DNA of 34,759 nt from Candidatus Jordarchaeia archaeon (GTDB lineage: Archaea > Asgardarchaeota > Jordiarchaeia > Jordiarchaeales > Jordiarchaeaceae), in the NCBI GenBank assembly GCA_029856435.1, contig JAHQXB010000163.1:1-34759 (forward strand), in the 5' to 3' direction. How positions within the stretch are numbered: position 1 is the stretch's first letter; each line of letters starts with the position of its first letter. Shown here piece by piece: positions 5,076-23,575 of this stretch. Position numbers and translations under genes: made by a program. Below the pieces are notes generated by a model. The model did no database searches and was not told the DNA's origin. It saw only the letters and a list, made by a program, of their open reading frames with translations.

Positions 5076-5360
5076 ATGGATGTGGTAAAAGTTCCAGGTA
5101 GCAATAGGAAGCATAAGGTTCGCATGTATGCTTTGAGCACCTGTATCTGGTGTAAGCGGACAAAACAGTTTTTGAAGGATAACAACATAGAATACGAATA
5201 CGTGGATGTGGACCTGGCGAACAGGGAGGACTACGAACAAATCAGGCAAGAGATTTTGAGTAGGGGAGGAAGCCTCTCCTTTCCAGTAATAATAATAGAT
5301 GATAACAAGTTAATTAATGGTTTTCGTGAAAACGATTTGAGGGAGGCTTTAGAGATTTGA
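5076..5360 (+). CDS. Glutaredoxin/NrdH-like redox protein
   Basis: A 94-residue thioredoxin-fold protein. The redox motif is STCIWCKRTKQFL with Cys23 and Cys26, followed by the typical glutaredoxin segment IEYEYVDVDL, the cis-Pro region SFPVIIID and a C-terminal helix. A short N-terminal extension of about 14 residues precedes the first strand. Such proteins shuttle electrons to target disulfides. The start ATG is preceded by GGAGTGAT. It sits between the flavoprotein (14 nt gap) and the FTR-like gene (4-nt overlap), so all three are almost certainly translated from one mRNA. The natural reading is that it is the electron carrier of this operon, reduced either by NAD(P)H through the flavoprotein or by ferredoxin through the FTR-like protein. 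Confidence 0.88.
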   Translation: MDVVKVPGSNRKHKVRMYALSTCIWCKRTKQFLKDNNIEYEYVDVDLANREDYEQIRQEILSRGGSLSFPVIIIDDNKLINGFRENDLREALEI

Positions 5361-5908
5361 CCACTCTGGAAGAGGTTCAAAAAAGAGCGGAAAGCGACGC
5401 AAAAACTTACGGCTACTACCTAAACCCAGACCCAGAATTTCTCAAAGGGCTCATCGAGGGACTTAAGAAAAACTGGGACCGCTATGGCTATCCCTCCTGT
5501 CCCTGCAGATTGGCCTCAGGAAACATTGAAATCGACCGCGACATAATCTGTCCCTGCGATTACCGAGACCCCGACGTGGCAGAGTACGGACAGTGTTACT
5601 GCTCCCTATACGTCAGTAAAGAGGTGTACGAAGGTAAAGCCCCCCTAAGATCAATTCCGGAACGCAGACCCAAAGAAAAACAAATCAGATCCTTCGAAGC
5701 CGCCAAGGCCCCCACCAAAAAGGAAAAAGCTGAAGGGGAGATAAAATTGGAAGCCGAGAAACCTATTACAATTGAGAAGAGGTTGTGGTACTGTAAGCAG
5801 TGTGGCTACGTGGTCTACAGGGAGGACCCCCCATACATTTGCCCCATATGCAAGGCGAAGAGGGAAATGTTTTCCGAAATAAAAATAGTCATCTCCGACA
5901 AGAGATAA
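5357..5908 (+). CDS. Ferredoxin:thioredoxin reductase-like catalytic protein fused to rubredoxin
   Basis: The N-terminal domain (1-95) is the catalytic subunit fold of ferredoxin:thioredoxin reductase. By alignment with the plant/cyanobacterial enzyme, Cys48, Cys65, Cys67 and Cys80 would bind the 4Fe-4S cluster, and Cys50 and Cys82 would form the redox disulfide, in the motifs SCPCR, CPCDY and CYCSL. A charged linker of about 45 residues follows. Residues 143-172 form a rubredoxin-type domain with Cys146/149 and Cys162/165. A rubredoxin-fused enzyme of this type, called ferredoxin:disulfide reductase, is known from Methanosarcina. No variable (alpha) FTR subunit is seen. The start is a TTG overlapping the stop of the glutaredoxin gene by 4 nt, showing translational coupling. 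The likely role is one-electron ferredoxin or rubredoxin input to a two-electron disulfide, with the adjacent glutaredoxin-like protein as target. Confidence 0.9.
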   Translation: MTTLEEVQKRAESDAKTYGYYLNPDPEFLKGLIEGLKKNWDRYGYPSCPCRLASGNIEIDRDIICPCDYRDPDVAEYGQCYCSLYVSKEVYEGKAPLRSIPERRPKEKQIRSFEAAKAPTKKEKAEGEIKLEAEKPITIEKRLWYCKQCGYVVYREDPPYICPICKAKREMFSEIKIVISDKR

Positions 5909-7196: not shown

Positions 7197-9197
7197 TTAG
7201 GTAACTCGCACCAGGCTTTCCTGTAGTTTGCCGTTCGCCTGTTCCTCTTTTTTACCATTTTTTCCATTTAGGGGCTGCAGTCCCAATCTTTGTTCAGCAG
7301 CTTGTAGGATAGCACCCAACATTTCAGAGTAGGACATTCCAGCGATTTTTGCCATTTTAGCAAGGTGTCCGTCCCAACACCATCCAGGGTTGGGGTTTAC
7401 TTCGAGAAGTTTTGGGTTTCCATTAGAGTCAAGCCTCCAGTCGAAGCGGCAGTAGTCTCTGCATTCCAGCCTCTGGAACAGGGTAATGCACCACTTTATG
7501 ATTTTACTTTTTACGTCTTCTGACAGATCTGCGGGTATAGATTTTATGTTCCAGTAGGGAGAATCTGGTAGCCACTTGGCTTCATATCCACAGATTTTAG
7601 GGAGCCCCTCTGGCAGTGAAGAGTAGTCCTCCTCGGTGATGGGCAGTACTGTGTAAGACTCTGGGGGGTTACCAATTATGCCTACACTAAGATCTTTGCC
7701 GGATAGAAATTCTTCGACTAGGATGGGCCTGTTGTACCCGAATTTTTCACGTATCTCGGAAATTGCATTGATGAGTTCTTCGGGATTGTTTACCACACAT
7801 CTCTGCGTGATGCCGAAGCTTGAGTCACCAAAGTTTGGCTTTACCAGAGCTGGGAAGACGAAGGTTAAATCGTATATGGAGTCTTCAGGTTTAACGAAGA
7901 TAGCTCTGGGAACTGGGATTCCCATCTCGTTGGCTATACCTCTTACCAGAGACTTGTCATAACAATGCGCAAGACACTGGGGACCGGAGCCGGTGTAGGG
8001 TATGCCTAGCTCCTCCAGTAGAGCAGGAATGTGTAGTTCTTTTCTGGGATCGTTAAAGAAACCTTCATCGCACAGGTTGAAGACGTAGTCTATCTTGCCC
8101 CTTAATTTCATTAAGTCTTGGATGAGGGTGTCGTGGTTGTGCAGATATGTGAAGTTGTAACCTTTGAGTTCTCTGAGAGCGTCCTTCATTTGGTCGATCG
8201 TGTAGATGTCGTCGTCGTCAAATCTTGCTCCCGGTTTGAGGCGGTCTGGCTTTGAAGGGTCACCGGTTATCACTACTACTTCTCTCAGCTCCTCTTTGGG
8301 TCTTTTCTTGATGGGTGTCCACTCTTTTCTGACAACACCTGTGATTATGATCCGTCTCTCCATCATACCTAGGTCTTGGTTACGCTGGGAAGAGGAGGCA
8401 ATTTCGGTGTGTATTGTTACATCGCTTAATCCCGCCTGTTGTAGAATATGGGTTATGCTATCTCTAGTGTAAAGTCTTTCGGCGTAGAATTGGTCGGCTA
8501 TTGTACCTTTTTCTACGTTGTTAATTATTTCACGGGTTATGAGACGTTGGCCATCGGCAGAAATGGAGCGTTCCCTGCACACGAAATGCTTTTTGTCTAT
8601 CCACTCCCATGAGCGTGGCTGATAGTGTTTCTTCAAGTATTCGCCATCAGCAACATCTATGAGTAGTTTGCCCCAGGGTTTGAGCACCCTGAAAGCCTCT
8701 TTAAGAACTCTAACGTCGTCCTGAACTGTTTCAAAGTAGCCAAAACTGTTCCCTAGAATCATAACCACATCGAAGGTATCTGGCGCATATGGAAGTTTTC
8801 TTGCATCGCCTTCCCTGAATCGAACATTTAAGCCTTCCTTTTTAGCTTGCGTCTTCGCCTTTTGAATTAGGTAGTGGGAGCGGTCCAATCCTTCAACATT
8901 CTTGAACCCTCTTCTTGCCAGTTCTAGAGAGTGACGCCCTTGTCCACAGCAACAATCCAGAATTCTATCGTCTGGTTGAAGATTCAGAATCGAAGAGAAG
9001 AGATCCACCTCTTCTCGGGTGATTTTCTGGTCGTCTACTACATCCCCATCAGTTTTTAGATAAAGGGAGTTAAAAATACGCCGCCACCAATCAGGAGGAA
9101 CATACTGCTCGAGATCATCGATAGGCCCTAGAACTTTTAATTGAGACTTACCATTTTTCCCCCGCGAGGGGGGTTTATCCCCTGCCTTTTCAGTCAT
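7197..9197 (-). CDS. Fusion protein: SAM methyltransferase + D-Ala-D-Ala-ligase-like ATP-grasp
   Basis: A 666-residue two-enzyme protein. Residues 60-295 are a class I SAM-dependent methyltransferase with motif I LDCCCGQGRHSLELA (80-94), an acidic GLDRS after strand 2, GDARKLPY and FDVVMILGNSFGY. Residues about 305-640 are an ATP-grasp ligase closest to D-alanine-D-alanine ligase: LGIPYTGSGP (397-406), LVKPNFGDSSFG (451-462), EEFLSGKDLSVG (495-506), and the Mg/ATP-binding FDWRLDSNGNPKLLEVNPNPG region (585-605). No stop or frame change lies between them. Both termini carry Asn/Gly/Lys-rich tails with GKNGK. Archaea lack murein, so the ligase half probably joins another amino acid or carboxylate, and the methyltransferase half may act on the same product. 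The ATG start follows GAGGCGC. No partner genes lie next to it. Domain identity is firm; the pathway is unknown. Confidence 0.85.
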   Translation of the reverse strand: MTEKAGDKPPSRGKNGKSQLKVLGPIDDLEQYVPPDWWRRIFNSLYLKTDGDVVDDQKITREEVDLFSSILNLQPDDRILDCCCGQGRHSLELARRGFKNVEGLDRSHYLIQKAKTQAKKEGLNVRFREGDARKLPYAPDTFDVVMILGNSFGYFETVQDDVRVLKEAFRVLKPWGKLLIDVADGEYLKKHYQPRSWEWIDKKHFVCRERSISADGQRLITREIINNVEKGTIADQFYAERLYTRDSITHILQQAGLSDVTIHTEIASSSQRNQDLGMMERRIIITGVVRKEWTPIKKRPKEELREVVVITGDPSKPDRLKPGARFDDDDIYTIDQMKDALRELKGYNFTYLHNHDTLIQDLMKLRGKIDYVFNLCDEGFFNDPRKELHIPALLEELGIPYTGSGPQCLAHCYDKSLVRGIANEMGIPVPRAIFVKPEDSIYDLTFVFPALVKPNFGDSSFGITQRCVVNNPEELINAISEIREKFGYNRPILVEEFLSGKDLSVGIIGNPPESYTVLPITEEDYSSLPEGLPKICGYEAKWLPDSPYWNIKSIPADLSEDVKSKIIKWCITLFQRLECRDYCRFDWRLDSNGNPKLLEVNPNPGWCWDGHLAKMAKIAGMSYSEMLGAILQAAEQRLGLQPLNGKNGKKEEQANGKLQESLVRVT

Positions 9198-10256
9198 GAT
9201 GTTTTTGCGCCTCTATTATAAGTGGCCTACACCTATTTATTGTTTCGTAATTCACCTTTTTGATTCTAAATTACACTTGTATTTTTTATACTTACGTTTT
9301 TATGATAACGTTTTAGTATATAAAAATTATCATTCATATCACCCCCACAATTTTGTTAAAACATGCCGCTTTCCGCTTTTTGGCCCCACATGTTTAGGCC
9401 GCACTCCTATTTGTAGGGATTTGTTTTTGTGGCCGGCTTTGAGAGAAACAATTTCCCCACTTTTTTAAACATCTTTGTGTGGAAAAATGGAGGCAGGAGG
9501 GGATGCGGAGGCAGGCTAAAGGCAAGGTCACCACAAAAATTCAGCCCCCCGGAGTGTTGCTTAAACATATGGTTTGGCCAAAAAACTATTTTAAAACTTC
9601 CTTTTGAAGGCTCAAAATTAAAAATGGAGCCCTAATAAAGCCCCTTCTCCAAACACCAAAATAAAGGGAAAAAGGGCGTGTACACATGTTACTTTGAATC
9701 CCCCTACATGGAACACGTGTACCATAGCTCAGAAGGCTTGCCAACTGTCTGGTTTTCCAGCTGAAAGCAGGTAGCAAAACCTCACGCTGGCAAGTTGGTG
9801 GTTACGAAGAGCAACAGCAAACTCGGCTTCACGTCCGCTAAAGGGGGGCGGGAGCTTCGGCGGGTTTACAGGCACATATAGGCTAGGTTGGCTTTATTTG
9901 GTGTGGTTGTGATTGCAAAATTTGGGCTCACTAAAAGCCTTTCAGAAGGGGGTGGCTGGAATTTTGGTCAGGGGATTTATTTTTGCGTTAGGCATAATCC
10001 AATGGGGCCTCGTCTTTAAGTGTGTGGCTTCCCTTTATGCATGATCTTTTGTTCCTCTCAAAAAAAGGAGGCTTTACATGGCTTCCTTCAATATAAGCCT
10101 TAAAAATGGTAAGACTGGCTAACCTTGCACACAATTCATGTCAACAAACTACATACTTACGGCAAGGTTCCTAATTCAATGGTAGAAACATTTTTTATTT
10201 TCATATGCTACTATTCAATCATAACTGGGGATGAATACAGATTCACGCAAGGAGGA
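9198..10256. other. 1.06-kb intergenic region with candidate structured RNA
   Basis: No convincing protein gene lies here. The short open frames at 9196-9468, 9429-9635 and 9586-9777 lack ribosome sites and family motifs. The stretch 9360-9880 is more GC-rich than the surrounding intergenic DNA and contains several inverted repeats, including AAACATG/CATGTTT near 9359-9394 and the three consecutive hairpins listed separately. The reverse-strand promoter of the fusion gene probably lies at 9219-9245, where AATAAATAGG and TTATAATA occur. Confidence 0.5.
9678..9870. ncRNA. Candidate structured RNA with three consecutive hairpins
   Basis: Three stems follow one another. Stem 1: GTACACATGTT (9680-9690) with AACACGTGTAC (9712-9722), 11 bp with one mismatch and a 21-nt loop. 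Stem 2: CTTGCCA (9737-9743) with TGGCAAG (9788-9794), a perfect 7 bp enclosing smaller CTGG/CCAG and AGGT/ACCT hairpins. Stem 3: AAACTCG (9819-9825) with CGGGTTT (9861-9867), 7 bp with one G-U, enclosing an inner TCCGC/GCGGG stem and followed directly by ACA (9868-9870). On the + strand the third unit recalls an archaeal H/ACA guide: symmetric pocket, and about 15 nt from the upper stem to ACA. No kink-turn was found. Strand and identity are unproven. Confidence 0.35.
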
Positions 10257-10397
10257 ATGTGTTTTTTGTGGGAAGAACTGCCTATTTGTGAAAATTGTGG
10301 CAAGTTTATAGATGATTGTGATTGTAAATGTCCATACTGTGGTGAGGCTGCGGATTGCCACTGCTGTGTGGGAAGAGAAGCTACAACTGGCGGATGA
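10257..10397 (+). CDS. Small Cys-rich (zinc-ribbon-like) protein
   Basis: A 46-residue (ATG 10257) or 43-residue (TTG 10266) protein with the pattern C-x2-C-x6-C-x-C-x-C-x2-C-x5-C-x-C-C, nine Cys within about 26 residues, beginning ICENCGKFIDDC. GGAGG at 10251-10255 is almost touching the ATG but is about 10 nt from the in-frame TTG, so the TTG may be the true start. The frame is open upstream to 10125, but that part has no motif. It ends 44 nt before the 2-oxoacid:ferredoxin oxidoreductase gamma/alpha gene on the same strand and is likely cotranscribed with it. The Cys pattern suggests zinc binding. I do not recognise a named family; a role in assembling or regulating the oxidoreductase is only a guess from position. 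Confidence 0.6.
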   Translation: MCFLWEELPICENCGKFIDDCDCKCPYCGEAADCHCCVGREATTGG

Positions 10398-10441
10398 GAT
10401 CTCAAACCAAATCAGATAGAATTCTTTGGTGATGACACGAA

Positions 10442-12379
10442 TTGTTGAGAGAAGATTTTGTATGGATGGCTGGCGGGCCTCAGGGCAGTGGTGTTGATTC
10501 GGGCACTAACATATTTGCCCGTGCTTGCTGCTATGGAGGGCTTCACGTATATGGAAAAAGAGAGTACCACTCCAACATTAAAGGACTGCACAGCTATTTC
10601 CAAGTCAGAGTTTCGCCTAAAGAAATTCAGGCGGATGTAGATCGTGTTGATTTACTTGCTGCATTCGATGCAGAAACCGTAGTGAGACACATATGGGAAG
10701 TTTCCCCAGGCGGGGGAATAATTGTCGATGCGGAAACGCTGGAAACCAAAATTGACGAAATCAAAACTTTAACCTCGGCTTTCAAAGCTGATTTTCAAAA
10801 AAATTTGGAAAGCAGGGGAGTTAGGGCGGAGACATTAGACGAACTGCTAAAAGCAGCCAAAAAAGAAAATAACATTAAGGTTTACGCCATACCCTATACC
10901 GATGTTCTAAGAGAGGTTGCTGAGGAGATTCACGAGGAGAAACTAAGCCGATTAACACGAATGATAAACGTATTAACCTTGGGAGTTTCCCTAGCCCTAG
11001 TTAACTATGAAAGGGAGCCCGTTGAAAGAGCCATCAAAACCATTTTCGGCGAAAAAAACAAAATTGTACAAATGAACATTGTAGCCTTCGACAAATCTTA
11101 CCGGTACGCTAGGAGAACCTTTGGGGATGACTTTGGCTATAAACTAGAAACGATTTCCACAGAGGAGAAAAGAATATTTCTGCAGGGAACGCAAGCTGTA
11201 GCCCTGGGAAAACTAGTTGGAGGCTGCAGATTCCAGTCCTACTACCCGATAACTCCCGCGGCCGACGAAAGCGAATACTTGGAAGAAAACGAGATACTAG
11301 AGTTAATAGGCGATAGGAATCCTGGCTCCATACTTGTTATGCAGACAGAGGATGAAATAGCAGCCATCAACATGGCCATTGGAGCGGCTCTGACTGGAGC
11401 TAGAGCAGCAACCAGCACCTCTGGCCCAGGTTTTTCATTAATGGTGGAAGGTTTGGGATGGGCGGGAAATAACGAGGTGCCAGTAGTGGTAAACTATTAT
11501 CAGCGTGGTGCACCGTCAACGGGTCTGCCTACCCGTCATGGACAGGCGGATCTTAGATTTGCGATGCATGCTTCTCATGGGGAGTTTCCCAGAATAGTTT
11601 TGTGCTCTGGCGACATCCAGGAGTGCTTCTATGATGCGGCGAGAGCCTTCAATTATGCTGAGCGTTACCAGATGCCTGTTATCCACCTAATTGATAAGGC
11701 CTTAGCTAACAGCAGTAAATCTTACAAAATGTTTGACATCAACCAGATTAGGATAGAACGCGGCCAACTGCTAGGCGAAAAGGATGTCGGGAACGAGGAG
11801 TATTTGAGATTTAAATTCACGGAGTCCGGATTGTCTCCCAGGGCTCCGCTGGGAACGTCCAACATTGTTTTCTGGAATTCGGGGGATGAACACGACCCAC
11901 TTGGACATATAAATGAGGAGTCCACTAATAGAACCTTGATGCTGGAAAAAAGGATGAAGAAACTGGAATTGGCAGACAGGGAGATTCCTTTGGAGGAAAG
12001 GGTTAACTTTTTTGGAGACGAGGAGGCTCCTAACACCGTTGTGAGTTGGGGTTCACCTAAGGGTGCAGTAATTGAAGCCTTGGAGAGAATACTTGGAGAA
12101 GGCTACAAAATGAACTTCATACAGGTGAGAATGCCCCTACCTCTCCCCAAAGACTACTTGGCTGAGAAACTGGAGAGGGCTGAGAAGAAAATTGTTGTTG
12201 AGGGTAACTATATGGCGCAATTAGCGGGAGTAATTCGGGAGCAAACTGGCATAGACATGGATTATTTCGTACTAAAGTGGAATGGCCGACCAATATCTTC
12301 AGACGAGGTTTATGATGCGTTTAAACTGATTATGGAGGAAAAGGCTCCAAGAAGGCAGGTGTTGAACCGTGGTTCTTAA
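10442..12379 (+). CDS. 2-oxoacid:ferredoxin oxidoreductase, fused gamma-alpha subunit
   Basis: A 645-residue subunit of the enzyme that oxidatively decarboxylates 2-oxoacids with CoA to acyl-CoA, CO2 and reduced ferredoxin. The first ~190 residues are the gamma domain ([13 protein letters not shown] near the start, then [19 protein letters not shown]). The alpha part follows, with the diagnostic [14 protein letters not shown] (YPITP near 268-272), [25 protein letters not shown] and [13 protein letters not shown]. The fused gamma-alpha plus separate beta layout is that of the two-subunit archaeal enzymes studied in Sulfolobus, which have broad 2-oxoacid specificity, so pyruvate, 2-oxoglutarate or branched-chain acids are all possible here. 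The start is one of two adjacent TTG codons (10442 or 10445), with GGTGA at 10429-10433. It overlaps the beta gene by 11 nt. Confidence 0.93.
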
Positions 12380-17493: not shown

Positions 17494-19896
17494 GTGGTAG
17501 GTTTTATGAAAGCCTCCCAGGATGTTAAGGGTAAGCTTATTGTTAAGGCGGTTAGAAATGTTAGAAGAGGCTATACGAAGGATGAAGCCACAAGGGGCAT
17601 GTTTCGTCCAGGAATCAAGTTGGATTTACAGAGGTCACGCCTAATAACTGAATCGTACAAGATGACTGAAGGCGAGCCCATGCCCATAAGGAGGGCTAAG
17701 GCTCTAGACCATATCCTCAGCAATTTAAAGATTTATATTCAGCCCTGGGAACGCATAGTGGGTAACCACACTGAGGAGCCCAGCGGTCTCTTTTTCCCCA
17801 TAGATATGAATTGGAGAAGCGTTTGGAGGGCTGTCAATTCTGTGGAGGGAAAAGGCCTCCTTGACGATGATGGGCGAAAAGAGTTGGAGGAACTCTGCAA
17901 ATACTGGGATGGTAAATGCATGAGTGATAGGCACAAAAACTTTTTTGGCGGAGAATTAGCCAAATACTGGAGGTATGATGGAACCTTCCTGTGGACCCAC
18001 TGGTCAGAGTTAGGAGTGCCTGATTACGAGAAACTGTTCCGTGTCGGGCTCAAGGGCCTAATTAAAGAAGCAGAGAATAAGCTGGAAGAAATAGAGAGGG
18101 AAGTTCCCCGCAGCTACGTGGAAAAGAAGGAATTCCTACTAGGAGTTATAATCGCACTCAAAGCAGTCATAAAATATGCCCACAGATACGCTAAACTCGC
18201 CAGAGAAATGGCTGAAAGGGAAACCAGAGATAAAGAGTTGAAGCAGAGGCTTCTGGAGATTGCTGAGAACTGCGAATGGGTTCCAGAAAACCCGCCTCGC
18301 ACATTTCTGGAAGCCCTACAGTTCTTCTTCATCATCCACCTGGTACGCTACGTGGAATATTCCACGTTGGGAATTGGAGTGAGGTTCGACAAGGTTTTTG
18401 GGCCCTACTACGAAAAGGATATCGCTGAGGGACGCCTCACAAGAGAGGAAGCCTTAGAACTGTTACAGTTGCTCTGGGTTAAACTGCACGAATTGGGGCT
18501 AATTTATTCCCCCCTACTTACAGCTATTTATGGGGGCGTAGCCTCCCTCCAAGCCATCACAATAGGTGGAACAGACTCAGAAGGCAGGGATGTTACAAAC
18601 GAAGTTAGCTACCTTGTTCTAGACACCGCCCTATCTATGCGCACCCTTGAGCCGAGCATCGCCCTGCGGGTTCACGATGGCACTCCAGACGAACTCTTGG
18701 AGAAGGCTGTCGATGTAATACGTACGGGCATAGGGTACCCTTCACTATTCAATGATCGAGCCATTATTCCCCTACTTCAGAGGTGGAATGTGCCCCTAAA
18801 GGATGCCCGTGACTACTCTGTAAGTGGCTGTGTCTACATAGAGATTCCCGGAAAGTGTATGGCCCGCCGCGCCCCGGGGGGCATCGTCCTACCTAAATGT
18901 TTGTGGTGGGCTCTTCACCAAGGCAAAGACCCAAAGACTGGGGAGCAGAGGGGTGCGCCCACGCCGGATCCCCGAACTTTTAAATCTGTGGAGGACGTGA
19001 TGAACGCTTATCTGGAGCAAGTGCGGTTTTTCTTTGATAAACAGTTGAAGTTGGAAGATACTTGCCGTGAACTCTACGAGAAGTATCTTCCAAGGCCCTA
19101 TTACTCGGCAATTCTGGACGGCTGTATAGAGAAGGCGATGGATTGCAGAAAGTGGGCCTATCCCACTAACTCATTCTGCGTAATTATTGGTCCCACAAAT
19201 GTTGCGGACTCCATAGCGGCTATTAAAAAGGTGGTTTTTGAGGATAAAAAGGTCACCATGGAGGAACTCATAGAGGCCATGGATAATAACTGGAAAGGAT
19301 ATGAGCACATTAGGCAGTTAATGCTCCAGGCGCCCAAGTATGGAAACGATGACGACTATGTGGATGAAATAATGAATGAGGTGCAAGTAAAAACAGAAGC
19401 AGTGATAGAATCATTCAGGGATCGCTTTGGACATCCCTGCCGTGGTGATGGGAGCGGTGTTTCTGCCACCTATGGTGTTGCTTTTGACACCCCTGCAACT
19501 CCTGATGGGCGCTTCGACGGGGAACCATTCGCAGATGCCACTCTCTCCCCCATGATGGGCAGAGATCAGAAAGGGCCCACTGCTGTTCTCAGCTCTGCTG
19601 CCAAAGTCGATGCAGTTAAAACTTACAATCATCTGCTTAATCAGAAGTTTTTGCCAAGTTATCTTGAGGGCGATTACAAACCCGTTTTTATACAGTATCT
19701 CAAAACTTGGAGAGAAATGGGAATACCCCACATACAATTCAACATTGTGGACAAGAAAACCCTAATCGAAGCCCAGATGAAGCCTCAGGAGCACCAGGAC
19801 CTTATTGTACGTGTTGCGGGTTATAGTGCCTACTTTGTGGATCTCAGTAAGGGATTGCAGGACGCAATAATAGCAAGAACCGAACAAAAGTTTTAA
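17494..19896 (+). CDS. Glycyl-radical enzyme, pyruvate-formate-lyase family, atypical active site
   Basis: An 800-residue glycyl-radical enzyme. The C-terminal radical loop is IVRVAGYSAYFVDL with Gly776 as the radical site. The thiyl residue is Cys446 in YSVSGCVYIEIPGK. In most eliminase, dehydratase and decarboxylase members the motif is GCVE, where Glu two residues after Cys is the general acid/base. Here that position is Tyr448. It is not true PFL, which has a Cys-Cys pair. Length and the rest of the fold, for example GGVASLQAITIGGTD and the DATLSPMMGRDQKGPTA C-terminal segment, are normal for the family. The start is GTG 17494 or the in-frame ATG 17506. The activase follows 56 nt downstream. 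The substrate cannot be assigned; loss of the acid/base Glu argues against diol dehydratase, choline lyase and 4-hydroxyphenylacetate decarboxylase chemistry. Confidence 0.9.
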   Translation: MVGFMKASQDVKGKLIVKAVRNVRRGYTKDEATRGMFRPGIKLDLQRSRLITESYKMTEGEPMPIRRAKALDHILSNLKIYIQPWERIVGNHTEEPSGLFFPIDMNWRSVWRAVNSVEGKGLLDDDGRKELEELCKYWDGKCMSDRHKNFFGGELAKYWRYDGTFLWTHWSELGVPDYEKLFRVGLKGLIKEAENKLEEIEREVPRSYVEKKEFLLGVIIALKAVIKYAHRYAKLAREMAERETRDKELKQRLLEIAENCEWVPENPPRTFLEALQFFFIIHLVRYVEYSTLGIGVRFDKVFGPYYEKDIAEGRLTREEALELLQLLWVKLHELGLIYSPLLTAIYGGVASLQAITIGGTDSEGRDVTNEVSYLVLDTALSMRTLEPSIALRVHDGTPDELLEKAVDVIRTGIGYPSLFNDRAIIPLLQRWNVPLKDARDYSVSGCVYIEIPGKCMARRAPGGIVLPKCLWWALHQGKDPKTGEQRGAPTPDPRTFKSVEDVMNAYLEQVRFFFDKQLKLEDTCRELYEKYLPRPYYSAILDGCIEKAMDCRKWAYPTNSFCVIIGPTNVADSIAAIKKVVFEDKKVTMEELIEAMDNNWKGYEHIRQLMLQAPKYGNDDDYVDEIMNEVQVKTEAVIESFRDRFGHPCRGDGSGVSATYGVAFDTPATPDGRFDGEPFADATLSPMMGRDQKGPTAVLSSAAKVDAVKTYNHLLNQKFLPSYLEGDYKPVFIQYLKTWREMGIPHIQFNIVDKKTLIEAQMKPQEHQDLIVRVAGYSAYFVDLSKGLQDAIIARTEQKF

Positions 19897-19952: not shown

Positions 19953-20882
19953 TTGTTAAGGGTGGGTGTAAAAAATCTGAAGTTAAAGGGACTTATTTTT
20001 AATATTCAGAGGTTCAGCATTCATGATGGGCCTGGAATAAGAACCACGGTTTTCTTGAAGGGGTGCCCTCTGAGATGCCTTTGGTGTTCCAATCCTGAAT
20101 CTCACGAGCCCTTTCCTACTATTATTGTTCGAGACATTAAGTGTGCTAAGTGTGGAAGCTGCGCTTTGGTGTGTCCTGTGGGTGCCATAAGCTTTGACAG
20201 GGAGAGGGGAAGAGTGATTAACTGGTCGGCTTGTAATCAGTGCTTGGTTTGTGTGGATGCTTGCAAATACCGGTCGCTTAGCATTTGTGGAAGACATATG
20301 GATGTTGATGAGGTTCTTGGGGAGGTGTTGAGAGATGTGCCCTTCTACAAAAATTCTGGTGGTGGGGTGACTGTTTCGGGGGGTGAGCCTCTATTACAAT
20401 GGGAGTTTGCTTCTGAGCTTTGTAAAACCTTTAGGGAAAACAAGCTCCATACTGCTCTCGAGACGTGTGGCTTTGCTCCCTGGAAAATTTTTGAGAGGGT
20501 TTTGGAACATGTGGATTTGGTTCTTTATGATGTTAAGCACCTTGACCCCGTGAAACACAGGGAGGGTACTGGTGTGGATAATGAAGTGATTTTGGATAAC
20601 CTTCATAAAGCAGCAAAAAGGAGACCGGTCTGGATTAGGGTACCCTTAATTGCGGGTTATAATGATTCAAAAGAGCACATTAAAAGCGTGGTGAATTTAG
20701 CCAGAGAGGTGGACGCCAAAAAGATTTCATTGCTGCCCTACCATGAGGGTGGGAAGTCTAAGTGTGAACAAATTGGAAAAACTTATCCCATTCCAGACGC
20801 TAAAGCCCCCCCAGAAGAGTATGTCAAAGAACTAAAAAAGTATATTACAGAGTTAGGAGTGGAAGCAACCATAGGTCACTAG
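19953..20882 (+). CDS. Glycyl-radical enzyme activating protein (radical SAM)
   Basis: A 309-residue radical-SAM protein that makes the glycyl radical on its partner. The N-terminal FSIHDGPGIRTTVFLKGCP leads into the cluster motif Cys38-x3-Cys42-x2-Cys45 (GCPLRCLWC). An inserted dicluster ferredoxin domain follows (Cys64, 67, 70, 74 and Cys94, 97, 100, 104), as in activases of glycerol dehydratase- and decarboxylase-type enzymes and unlike PFL activase. The SAM-binding GGGVTVSGGEPLLQ is near residue 131. The start is uncertain: TTG 19953, or GTG 19962 in the same frame; no clean ribosome site decides. It lies 56 nt after the enzyme gene, same strand, so pairing is clear. Electrons probably come from reduced ferredoxin. 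Confidence 0.92.
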   Translation: MLRVGVKNLKLKGLIFNIQRFSIHDGPGIRTTVFLKGCPLRCLWCSNPESHEPFPTIIVRDIKCAKCGSCALVCPVGAISFDRERGRVINWSACNQCLVCVDACKYRSLSICGRHMDVDEVLGEVLRDVPFYKNSGGGVTVSGGEPLLQWEFASELCKTFRENKLHTALETCGFAPWKIFERVLEHVDLVLYDVKHLDPVKHREGTGVDNEVILDNLHKAAKRRPVWIRVPLIAGYNDSKEHIKSVVNLAREVDAKKISLLPYHEGGKSKCEQIGKTYPIPDAKAPPEEYVKELKKYITELGVEATIGH

Positions 20883-20971: not shown

Positions 20972-21628
20972 TTGGAGATAAAGGCTCTCGTCTTTGATTT
21001 GGAGGGTACACTTTACAACTCTAGGGAACTTGCCAATGAGTGGCGTGTTCAGGTATTTAAACTACTCAAGGAGAAAACGGGGAGAAGCGAGGAGGATATT
21101 TTGAAAGAATTTTTAAAGATAACTGAAGAATTAAGGGGGCAAGGCTTCAGGAGACCGCCCGTTTCTATGATAGTGGAAAAAGTGGGAATAACTAGGGAGG
21201 AATTCTACAAAGCGATAGACTCGGTGGATGCTAAAAAATTTTTGAAACCAGACCCGGAACTGAAACAAGCTTTGGAACATATGAAGAAGCGGTGGAAGCT
21301 GGCTATGCTTACAAATCTGAGCCGTAAAAGTACTCTCAACATAATTGAAGCCCTGGGCTTAGAACCAGAGATTTTTAATCCCCTGATTACTGCGAGTGAA
21401 ATGGAAAAAGGAAAACCTGACCCGGAACCCTTCAAAAAAATAATTGAGGATTTAGACTTGGAGCCCTCATCCATATTGATGGTGGGTGACAGTGTTTCCT
21501 CGGACCTGGCACCCGCCAAGAAGTTGGGAATGAAAACCGCTCTTGTCAGCGAGAAGGAAAGCTCCCCCCTAGCAGACATAAAAGTTAAAAACATCGTAGA
21601 ATTAAAAGAAATCCTTGAAAACAAATAA
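20972..21628 (+). CDS. HAD-superfamily hydrolase with DxE motif I
   Basis: A 218-residue HAD hydrolase with an alpha-helical cap inserted after motif I (subclass I). Motif I is VFDLEGTLYNS (7-17), with Asp9 as nucleophile and Glu instead of the usual second Asp. Motif II is MLTNLS, motif III the Lys in EKGKPDPEPF, motif IV VGDSVSSDL. A DxE variant is known in enolase-phosphatase E1 and some other HAD proteins, so the change does not mean inactivity. The start is TTG with GAGGTG 8 nt upstream. It follows the activase by 89 nt on the same strand and may be in the same transcript, suggesting dephosphorylation of a metabolite linked to the glycyl-radical reaction, which is inference from position. 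Confidence 0.85.
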   Translation: MEIKALVFDLEGTLYNSRELANEWRVQVFKLLKEKTGRSEEDILKEFLKITEELRGQGFRRPPVSMIVEKVGITREEFYKAIDSVDAKKFLKPDPELKQALEHMKKRWKLAMLTNLSRKSTLNIIEALGLEPEIFNPLITASEMEKGKPDPEPFKKIIEDLDLEPSSILMVGDSVSSDLAPAKKLGMKTALVSEKESSPLADIKVKNIVELKEILENK

Positions 21629-22090: not shown

Positions 22091-23575
22091 TTGTCTGAGA
22101 AATTTGATGTGGTAGTTATTGGCGCTGGTTTAGGTGGGCTCTCCTCAGCCGCCACCCTAGCTAAAAACGGTCTGAGCGTTTTGCTCCTGGATAAACACTA
22201 CAAGCCGGGTGGATATGCAACTTCCTTTGTTAGGGGTAGGTTTGAGTTCGAAGTGGCGCTCCATGCTCTCTCTGGACTGGATCTTGACCGTAAGCGGGGT
22301 TACATGTACCGAATGCTTGAGGAGCTTGGAATAACGAAGAGGGTGGAATTCGTTAAACTTTCCACGCTCTACAAGTCAGTCTACCCAGATTTTGAGTTTG
22401 TGATGCCCGCCGGAAGAGAGAATATTGAGAATGTTCTATTTGACACTTTTCCCAAGGAATCTGAAGGCATTAAGCGTTTCCTTGACCGAATAAGTGCTAC
22501 AAACGCTGTTCTCACCGGGCTTCAGAGAGGGGGAGTGACAAAAGAGCAGATTCAGGAACACTTTGTAAAGTATCAAGATAAGACACTTGCAGAAGTGTTA
22601 AATGCCGACGTTAAAGATGTTAGGGCTCGCGCAATCCTCTCCCAGCTTACTGGCTACTTTGGACTTCCACCCTCAAAGGTTTCCTACATAATAGCTGCGT
22701 CTGGCCTAGACACCTACTTCATGTATGGCGGAGCCCAAATAAGGGGTACCTCCCACACCTTGGCAAATGCCTTCGTAGAGTCCATTACCGAATTTGGGGG
22801 AGAAGTTAGATTAAGCAATGGAGCAAAGAAAATTCTCACAGAAGAAGGCAGAGTAACCGGAGTTGTAACTGAGAAAAACGAGAAAATACAAACAAATTAC
22901 ATAGTTTCAAATGTTAACCCCTTTGCACTATGCAACTTAATAGGCCTAGATAAGATGCCTGAGTCCTTCTTGGAGAAGCTACGCTCAAAGCCCATAGCCA
23001 TAGCAACAGTCTGTGTTTACTTGGGACTGGATGTACCGTACACTGAGCTGGGACTGGATGAATTTGAAATGTTTATTAGCTCAAGCTACGACTTTGACCG
23101 ACTCTACAAAATGAGAAGTCTGGAGCCAACCGAGATTGGACTTGCCACCTACAACCTGGCTTACTCTGAGGCCTCACCGCCCGGAACAACCATTGTGGTG
23201 CTTACCACCATCGCTAATGGCGATGCCTGGACAAAACTGAATCCCGCACAGTACTTTGAAACCAAGACTAGAGTTGGTGACAGAATATTAAGGATCGCTG
23301 AGGAGAAAGTTCCAGGATTAAGGGAGCATATTGAGGTGGTGGAGGTAGCCACACCAATCACAAATATGCGGTACACGGGGAATCCTGAAGGCACAATACT
23401 TGGAACCCCTTACACTCCCGATAACATCCTTGGAAAACGCTTGCCACAAGATGGCCCATTTAAAGGGCTTTACCTTGCCGGAGCCTGGACCCAGGTTGGT
23501 GGAGGATACCAAACCTGCTTGATGTCTGGAAACTGGGCCGCAAACAAGATTCTCAGCGAGTTTAAAAGAAAATAA
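22091..23575 (+). CDS. CrtI-like FAD-dependent oxidoreductase (phytoene desaturase/retinol saturase family)
   Basis: A 494-residue flavoprotein. The N-terminal FAD loop is VVIGAGLGGLSSAATLAKNG (8-27), followed by the family Gly-rich motif DKHYKPGGYATSF (35-47). The C-terminal FAD motif is GLYLAGAWTQVGGGYQTCLMSG. This arrangement is that of phytoene desaturase, carotenoid isomerase (CrtISO) and retinol saturase-like enzymes, which desaturate, isomerise or reduce isoprenoid chains. No phytoene synthase or lycopene cyclase gene lies nearby, so carotenoid synthesis is not supported by context; archaeal homologues may act on other isoprenoids such as lipid side chains or quinones. The start is TTG with GGAGTGATG just upstream. 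It appears monocistronic. Confidence 0.82.
   Translation: MSEKFDVVVIGAGLGGLSSAATLAKNGLSVLLLDKHYKPGGYATSFVRGRFEFEVALHALSGLDLDRKRGYMYRMLEELGITKRVEFVKLSTLYKSVYPDFEFVMPAGRENIENVLFDTFPKESEGIKRFLDRISATNAVLTGLQRGGVTKEQIQEHFVKYQDKTLAEVLNADVKDVRARAILSQLTGYFGLPPSKVSYIIAASGLDTYFMYGGAQIRGTSHTLANAFVESITEFGGEVRLSNGAKKILTEEGRVTGVVTEKNEKIQTNYIVSNVNPFALCNLIGLDKMPESFLEKLRSKPIAIATVCVYLGLDVPYTELGLDEFEMFISSSYDFDRLYKMRSLEPTEIGLATYNLAYSEASPPGTTIVVLTTIANGDAWTKLNPAQYFETKTRVGDRILRIAEEKVPGLREHIEVVEVATPITNMRYTGNPEGTILGTPYTPDNILGKRLPQDGPFKGLYLAGAWTQVGGGYQTCLMSGNWAANKILSEFKRK

Follow-up and report, generated by a model that had tools for sequence, protein, structure and literature searches.

The window analysed here, 34,759 nucleotides of genomic DNA from a Candidatus Jordarchaeia archaeon, contains the gene for a glycyl-radical enzyme (GRE) with tyrosine two residues after the catalytic cysteine and, adjoining it, the gene for a radical-SAM activase (Table 1). 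The host genome (3.54 Mb in 181 contigs), which belongs to a phylum sampled with 228 genomes, encodes an actin (PF00022, 456 bits, E 1e-136) and three more GREs, with the motifs GCVE, GCLE and GCVE; the neighbouring 2-oxoacid:ferredoxin oxidoreductase subunits score above the archaeal equivalog cut-offs. The actin and these scores point to an Asgard archaeon. The first-pass annotation had recognised a dicluster-type activase beside the enzyme, and this agrees with the cysteines at positions 38/42/45 (CX3CX2C), with the two four-cysteine ferredoxin-type motifs at 64/67/70/74 and 94/97/100/104, and with a score of 357 bits against TIGR02494 (cut-off 174). The only other neighbours of the GRE gene are a HAD-family hydrolase, a phytoene-desaturase-like FAD protein and an MFS transporter, and no beta-oxidation gene was found within 6 kb. 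A pathway read from these three neighbours was rejected, since none is indicated and the synteny is conserved only within the genus. A HAD gene, not necessarily orthologous to that in the window, adjoins the GRE gene at locus L030 as well. Homologues of the FAD protein occur near a Cys-x-Tyr GRE (L156:10610-12112) and a CMSW GRE (L037:4196-5665), a recurrence that covers Asgard archaea and Chloroflexi and was seen at none of the other GRE loci compared. No Rfam element was found in the window, and promoter-like and terminator-like matches near the GRE gene were close to the shuffled expectation. Elsewhere in the window are two fused genes, one for a 666-residue protein with a class I methyltransferase and a D-Ala-D-Ala-ligase-type ATP-grasp domain (7197-9197, minus strand), the other joining the catalytic chain of ferredoxin-thioredoxin reductase to a rubrerythrin-type rubredoxin domain (5357-5908, plus strand).

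Table 1. Genes and selected codons at the GRE locus (positions in the window)
Feature	Position	Strand	Basis or remark
Cys-x-Tyr glycyl-radical enzyme	17494..19896	+	800 aa; ORF, Pfam, NCBIfam, model, alignment
Tyr346 codon, column of BSS Phe385 (toluene pocket)	18529..18531	+	24/24 clade members
Cys446 codon, thiyl-radical residue	18829..18831	+	alignment and index
Tyr448 codon (Cys+2)	18835..18837	+	Tyr throughout the clade (24/24); BSS/MASS have Ser and eliminases Glu
Arg459 codon, candidate counterpart of fumarate-binding Arg508 (BSS)/Arg492 (MASS)	18868..18870	+	24/24; Ile in L148
Ser654 codon, column of BSS Gln707/MASS Glu690 (fumarate contact)	19453..19455	+	24/24 clade members
Gly776 codon, glycyl-radical site (RVAGYS)	19819..19821	+	alignment and index
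Radical-SAM activase bearing two additional ferredoxin-type 4Fe-4S motifs	19953..20882	+	TIGR02494, Pfam, Cys motifs
HAD-family hydrolase after the activase	20972..21628	+	profile matches; retained in sister genome; candidate link to GRE
Phytoene-desaturase-like FAD protein	22091..23575	+	weak association; homologous genes close to the GREs of L156 (Cys-x-Tyr) and L037 (CMSW)

The GRE gene is called from a GTG start codon, with ATG at codon 5 as an alternative start, and its product matches both PF02901 (E 2.8e-172) and PF01228 (E 2.3e-26). An index check placed Cys446 and Tyr448 in the stretch DYSVSGCVYIEIPGK and Gly776 in RVAGYS, so that the earlier description of an intact radical machinery holds. 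The traits of the GRE superfamily are all present, namely the finger-loop cysteine, the RVxGY glycine motif and a PFL-like barrel fold in the AlphaFold2 model (mean pLDDT 89.2, pTM 0.92), and Gly776 is not replaced by Ala, Ser or Thr (the AARE criterion). To judge from the radical residues and the adjacent activase, the protein is an intact GRE, a radical enzyme sensitive to oxygen. The adjacent cysteine pair of PFL is missing, as had been noted (Gly445-Cys446; TIGR01255, 96 bits against a cut-off of 994), and the score stays under the cut-off of every full-length NCBIfam GRE model, including the broad PFL2-3 subfamily TIGR01774 (586 bits, cut-off 678), the eliminase equivalogs HpsG (554/1000), HypD (516/1100) and CutC (437/1050), and the decarboxylases IAD (432/1100) and HPAD (328/1150). 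In a Foldseek search with the model, glycerol dehydratase (GDH), PD, benzylsuccinate synthase (BSS) and (1-methylalkyl)succinate synthase (MASS) scored almost equally (TM about 0.9), with GDH at the top; thus, comparison of folds cannot tell the subfamilies apart.

Tyr448 stands at the position of the usual Glu, as the first-pass annotation stated. Its comparison, however, omitted Ser in BSS and MASS (CMSP) and Gln in phenylacetate decarboxylase (PMC9248008), and with these the missing Glu alone has precedent. A sequencing accident is not the explanation of Tyr448, because a 97% identical copy with the identical motif is present in a second genome of the genus, and because all 24 relatives in the alignment, which come from several phyla, have tyrosine at the position.

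These relatives form a clade with the signature GCVY[ILM][DE][IL]PGKN and with members in Asgard archaea, Desulfobacterota, Peptococcaceae-type Firmicutes and Chloroflexi. Tyr448, Arg459, Tyr346 and Ser654 are invariant among the 24 full-length aligned members; a divergent member (L148) keeps Cys-x-Tyr and has Ile at the position of Arg459. By these alignments, Tyr448 is a mark of the clade and not a stray substitution. In the phylum of the host, a Cys-x-Tyr enzyme was found in four genomes (G000, G002 with 97% identity, G099 with 62% and G084 with 66%, the last a partial sequence). A scan of 84,980 species genomes yielded ten bacterial loci of 62-67% identity, every one with GCVY, from Peptococcaceae, Syntrophomonadaceae, Deltaproteobacteria/Desulfobacterales, Desulfatibacillum, Chloroflexi and Syntrophaceae. 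At E <= 1e-250, and with the seed genomes counted in, matches occurred in 9/390 genomes of the order to which the Desulfatibacillum MAG belongs, in 2/113 of the Peptococcaceae class and in 5/393 of the Chloroflexi class, the last count including L158 and L159, which are not Cys-x-Tyr. Relatives borne on plasmids were just ordinary HypD/YbiW/CutC/PflD-type enzymes (at most 36% identity), and no X-succinate synthase (XSS) was found on plasmids. No account of the clade was found in the open literature, subscription journals lying outside that search. Two assemblies have broken reading frames of Cys-x-Tyr GREs (L035:9977-12363 and L044:1109-3552). An 8.9-Mb MAG (G232, the source of L031) has 22 GRE matches at E <= 1e-40, of which four are Cys-x-Tyr enzymes and several are MasD-like.

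Maximum-likelihood trees were built (LG+C20, PMSF) with TutD (BSS), MasD (MASS), GDH, HplG and the isethionate lyase IseG/IslA as references, the reference chains being taken from PDB alignments. The first-pass annotation had proposed that a separate Cys-x-Tyr clade would support novelty, and such a clade was obtained with support of 100/100. Its immediate sister is a group of GREs with CM[RS]W or CMVP (100/99; L036-L043, L009, L022-L024), and the pair joins the XSS (TutD, MasD) with 99/95, while GDH, IslA and HplG are on the opposite side of the tree. Approximately unbiased (AU) tests rejected grouping the pair either with GDH (p 9.3e-6) or with the decarboxylase-like group that contains indoleacetate decarboxylase (IAD; p 4.4e-4), as well as the grouping of the Cys-x-Tyr clade with XSS without the CM group (p 1.6e-4). 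Because the alternative groupings are rejected, the enzyme is to be regarded as a sister of the XSS family, which it joins via the CM group, and not as belonging to it; no placement inside the XSS clade was found. No clustering inside a characterised Tyr-bearing subfamily was seen either, consistent with the earlier suggestion that the enzyme belongs to none of the best-known subfamilies; by these trees, which hold no PAD and HPAD sequences, the clade is outside every characterised subfamily tested. Within the clade, the window enzyme and L021 sit apart, and L021 groups with a deltaproteobacterial sequence (100/100), which suggests two transfers from bacteria to Asgard archaea.

The CM group shares with the Cys-x-Tyr clade the PGK and DG[ST] motifs and, in 9/10 sequences, Arg459. 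It differs in Met at Cys+1 and in Arg, Ser, Val or Ile at Cys+2, and it is uncharacterised too. GREs of the CM type with Val, Arg, Ser or Ile (L009/L015, L022-L024, L036-L043) occur in Asgard archaea and in bacteria. One Cys-Met-type GRE of G002 is split across two contigs, and four tandem GRE genes, all Cys-Met-Arg-Trp, were found in a genome of the Chloroflexi class (G763; L158:7934-17845).

One alternative is that the protein is a divergent eliminase, a dehydratase or lyase of the diol, choline or hydroxyproline type, in which tyrosine serves as the general base instead of Glu. Its top sequence and fold matches are glycerol/propanediol dehydratases; the score against TIGR01774 points in the same direction, and pairwise identity is 35% with GDH, 32% with BSS and 31% with MASS. 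The B12-independent glycerol dehydratase (PDB 1R8W) also has the same radical residues and a closely similar fold (TM 0.90). However, its polar substrate residues H164, H281, S282, Y339, E435 and D447 are replaced by L173, L292, G293, L352, Y448 and A460, that is, by Leu, Gly or Ala apart from the change of Glu435 to Tyr448. Together with the AU result and the scores under all NCBIfam cut-offs, this makes an eliminase improbable. The kinship with GDH implied by the ranking of PDB entries with the single protein was not accepted, given the long branches of the XSS and the contrary outcome of the trees and AU tests; the model-based tests answer only partly the caution raised by the higher raw identity.

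An arylacetate-type radical decarboxylase is about equally improbable. An apolar pocket and a possible carboxylate anchor would suit such an enzyme, and phenylacetate decarboxylase also does without Glu. However, the AU test speaks against it, and a genuine indoleacetate decarboxylase (L201; 1576 bits, cut-off 1100), when added to the tree, left the topology unchanged and fell on the other side from the Cys-x-Tyr clade, in a tree that holds no PAD or HPAD sequence.

The active-site columns were also compared with those of the fumarate-adding enzymes. Cys+2 is Ser in 11/12 of the XSS set and Glu in 19/21 of the eliminase-side set; the CMSP motif was not found in the clade, where 24/24 members have GCVY. 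The column of GDH Glu458 holds Glu in 12/12 XSS and in 19/21 eliminase-side sequences, and Trp471 here. The columns of the BSS toluene pocket stay apolar or aromatic, Ile384 being Val or Ile, Phe385 being Tyr, and Leu391, Ile617 and Val709 being unchanged. In XSS, fumarate is bound by a single Arg (Arg508 in BSS, Arg492 in MASS) together with an oxyanion hole that the Cys loop provides, and the remaining fumarate contacts differ even between BSS and MASS (PMC12358834, PMC4848970). Arg459 shares a column with this Arg in one alignment and stands in the adjacent column in another, a shift that stems from a Cys-x-Tyr loop shorter by two residues; since the alignments disagree, we consider the equivalence of Arg459 with the BSS/MASS Arg as likely but unproven. 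TutD/BssA (PDB 4PKC, 5BWE), on the same side of the tree, resembles the enzyme in a largely kept apolar pocket and in an Arg508 near the column of Arg459; it differs in Ser495 against Tyr448, in the fumarate contacts Tyr197, Ser199, Trp613, Asn615 and Gln707, none of which is retained here, and in its BssB/BssC subunits. MasD/AssA (PDB 9O8U), of the sister group, shares the Cys and Gly radical residues, the Arg after the Cys loop and the lack of Glu at Cys+2, and differs in the Ser of its CMSP, in the longer loop, in Glu690 against Ser654 and in its beta, gamma and delta subunits.

Fumarate-adding GREs initiate anaerobic hydrocarbon breakdown and, in the characterised cases, have small accessory subunits. 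Those of BSS and MASS have been described as unique to fumarate-adding enzymes (PMC12358834, PMC6776118). We searched with PF08201, which covers only the gamma subunit (BssC/TutF); beta and delta subunits were sought just as small Cys-rich reading frames. As a positive case, a gamma subunit was detected near the BSS-like enzyme of L066 (E 8.6e-25). The 23 genomes with Cys-x-Tyr enzymes gave nine matches, confined to the three genomes that also bear MasD-like genes, and each of the nine is no more than about 300 bp away from a GRE gene whose score puts it in the MasD-like group. Comparison of coordinates found none beside a Cys-x-Tyr gene in the 23 genomes, and the other 20 genomes, that of the window included, gave no match. 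Because the same search succeeds in these genomes, the Cys-x-Tyr system appears to have a two-gene layout of enzyme and activase only.

The activase is the sole regularly retained neighbour, being near the GRE in 22/25 Cys-x-Tyr loci. Recurrent neighbours in bacteria include genes for acyl-CoA dehydrogenase, enoyl-CoA hydratase, thiolase, CoA ligase, class III CoA-transferase, TetR-type regulators and TRAP transporters. For example, the GRE and activase genes of L157 are accompanied by TRAP transporter genes and by two class III CoA-transferase genes in tandem, and those of L148 by genes for an OYE-type reductase, an acyl-CoA dehydrogenase, an enoyl-CoA hydratase and an AMP-forming ligase. TRAP C4-dicarboxylate genes are also present in FAE operons of Atribacteria (PMC6776118). 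In six shared genomes, CoA or beta-oxidation genes occurred within 6 kb of 6/8 Cys-x-Tyr, 5/7 MasD-like and 9/33 other GREs; the one-sided Fisher p of 0.019 is optimistic, because the context families were picked after the Cys-x-Tyr loci had been seen. The Fer4 domain of EtfA was removed before this final count, since the EtfA matches of the first count were suspected to be cross-matches of ferredoxin domains.

We consider the best explanation, with a probability of roughly 45%, to be that the protein is a stand-alone fumarate-adding enzyme that forms a C-C bond on a largely apolar substrate. The outline of the mechanism follows the established glycyl-radical scheme. The activase would make the radical on Gly776, which would oxidise Cys446 to the thiyl, and this would abstract hydrogen from a mainly apolar organic substrate. 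The substrate carbon radical would add to an acceptor that bears a carboxylate and is most likely fumarate; Arg459 would hold this acceptor, along with Ser654 and the Cys loop. After the return of hydrogen, the product would be activated with CoA and beta-oxidised. Tyr448 would shape the site, or form a hydrogen bond in it, in place of Ser495 of BSS, whose mechanistic details have been described (PMC4848970). The radical machinery is backed by sequence and model; substrate and acceptor are what we infer. Fumarate addition is favoured by the grouping with XSS, the AU tests, the apolar pocket columns, the conservation of Arg459 and the CoA/beta-oxidation neighbours. Against it count the slightly higher identity with GDH, the dependence of Arg459 on the alignment and its replacement in L148, the lost contacts, the lack of BssC/TutF, the optimistic p value and the window's own lack of beta-oxidation genes near the GRE.

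The missing accessory subunits and the loss of most BSS fumarate contacts would also suit a radical lyase, mutase or isomerase that acts, without fumarate, on a single carboxylate-bearing apolar substrate. Arg459 would then anchor the carboxylate, Tyr448 would be an acid/base or radical-stabilising residue, and the product of a C-C cleavage or a rearrangement would enter CoA pathways. The genes for organic-acid uptake and CoA metabolism nearby are compatible with this, as is the fully conserved pair of Tyr346 and Tyr448, unlike any XSS. However, the nearest characterised relatives in the phylogeny add to fumarate, and such chemistry is seen in no characterised member on the XSS side of the tree; we regard it as less likely than fumarate addition. 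Of the three reactions listed in the first-pass annotation, then, fumarate addition is the one favoured by the phylogeny, and a C-C lyase or a new decarboxylation is less likely. More tentatively, the clade may be a new subfamily for a radical reaction that forms or breaks C-C bonds in a way unknown among GREs, working as a lone alpha subunit without iron-sulfur or rubredoxin-like subunits, with Tyr448 (perhaps also Tyr346) as a catalytic residue, and acquired by Asgard archaea from bacteria at least twice.

The Cys-x-Tyr clade, whose function is putative, is a sister group of wide distribution that has retained the radical machinery and an apolar pocket, has no BssC-type subunit and carries Tyr at a key position. 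The pair of enzyme and activase is a simple two-gene system for expression, and the clade can reveal how branches of the eliminase type and of the addition type came to diverge. Claims of hydrocarbon degradation by Asgard archaea are affected too: as the clade is separate from XSS and its function only putative, a single Cys is insufficient for naming a gene ass or bss.

Archaeoglobus fulgidus PflD has reportedly been proposed as an archaeal alkylsuccinate synthase. GREs of Hermodarchaeota were named Ass/Bss mainly from a single Cys and similarity to this protein (PMC8163825). The A. fulgidus structure (PDB 2F3O), an archaeal GRE with 32% identity to the window enzyme and a TM score of 0.88, scores 520 bits with an eliminase-side enzyme of Sulfolobales (L055) against 401 with the window enzyme, and the Ass label of archaeal pflD genes thus merits a re-test. 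A paper on a benzene cluster names no glycyl-radical enzyme as the candidate (PMC13101534).

Three labels or sequences of other GREs deserve mention. PDB entry 8IOF has the molecule name benzylsuccinate synthase alpha subunit and a title that refers to N-methyl-cis-4-hydroxy-D-proline dehydratase. The enzyme of L076 (4804-7095) is above the NCBIfam cut-off for trans-4-hydroxy-L-proline dehydratase (1266 against 1100 bits), a call that is doubtful because GCVT replaces GCVE. In a gammaproteobacterial MAG (ZC4RG14; L104), the GRE at 10001-12340 reads AVAGSLGVNIPG, with Ser at the position of the catalytic Cys.
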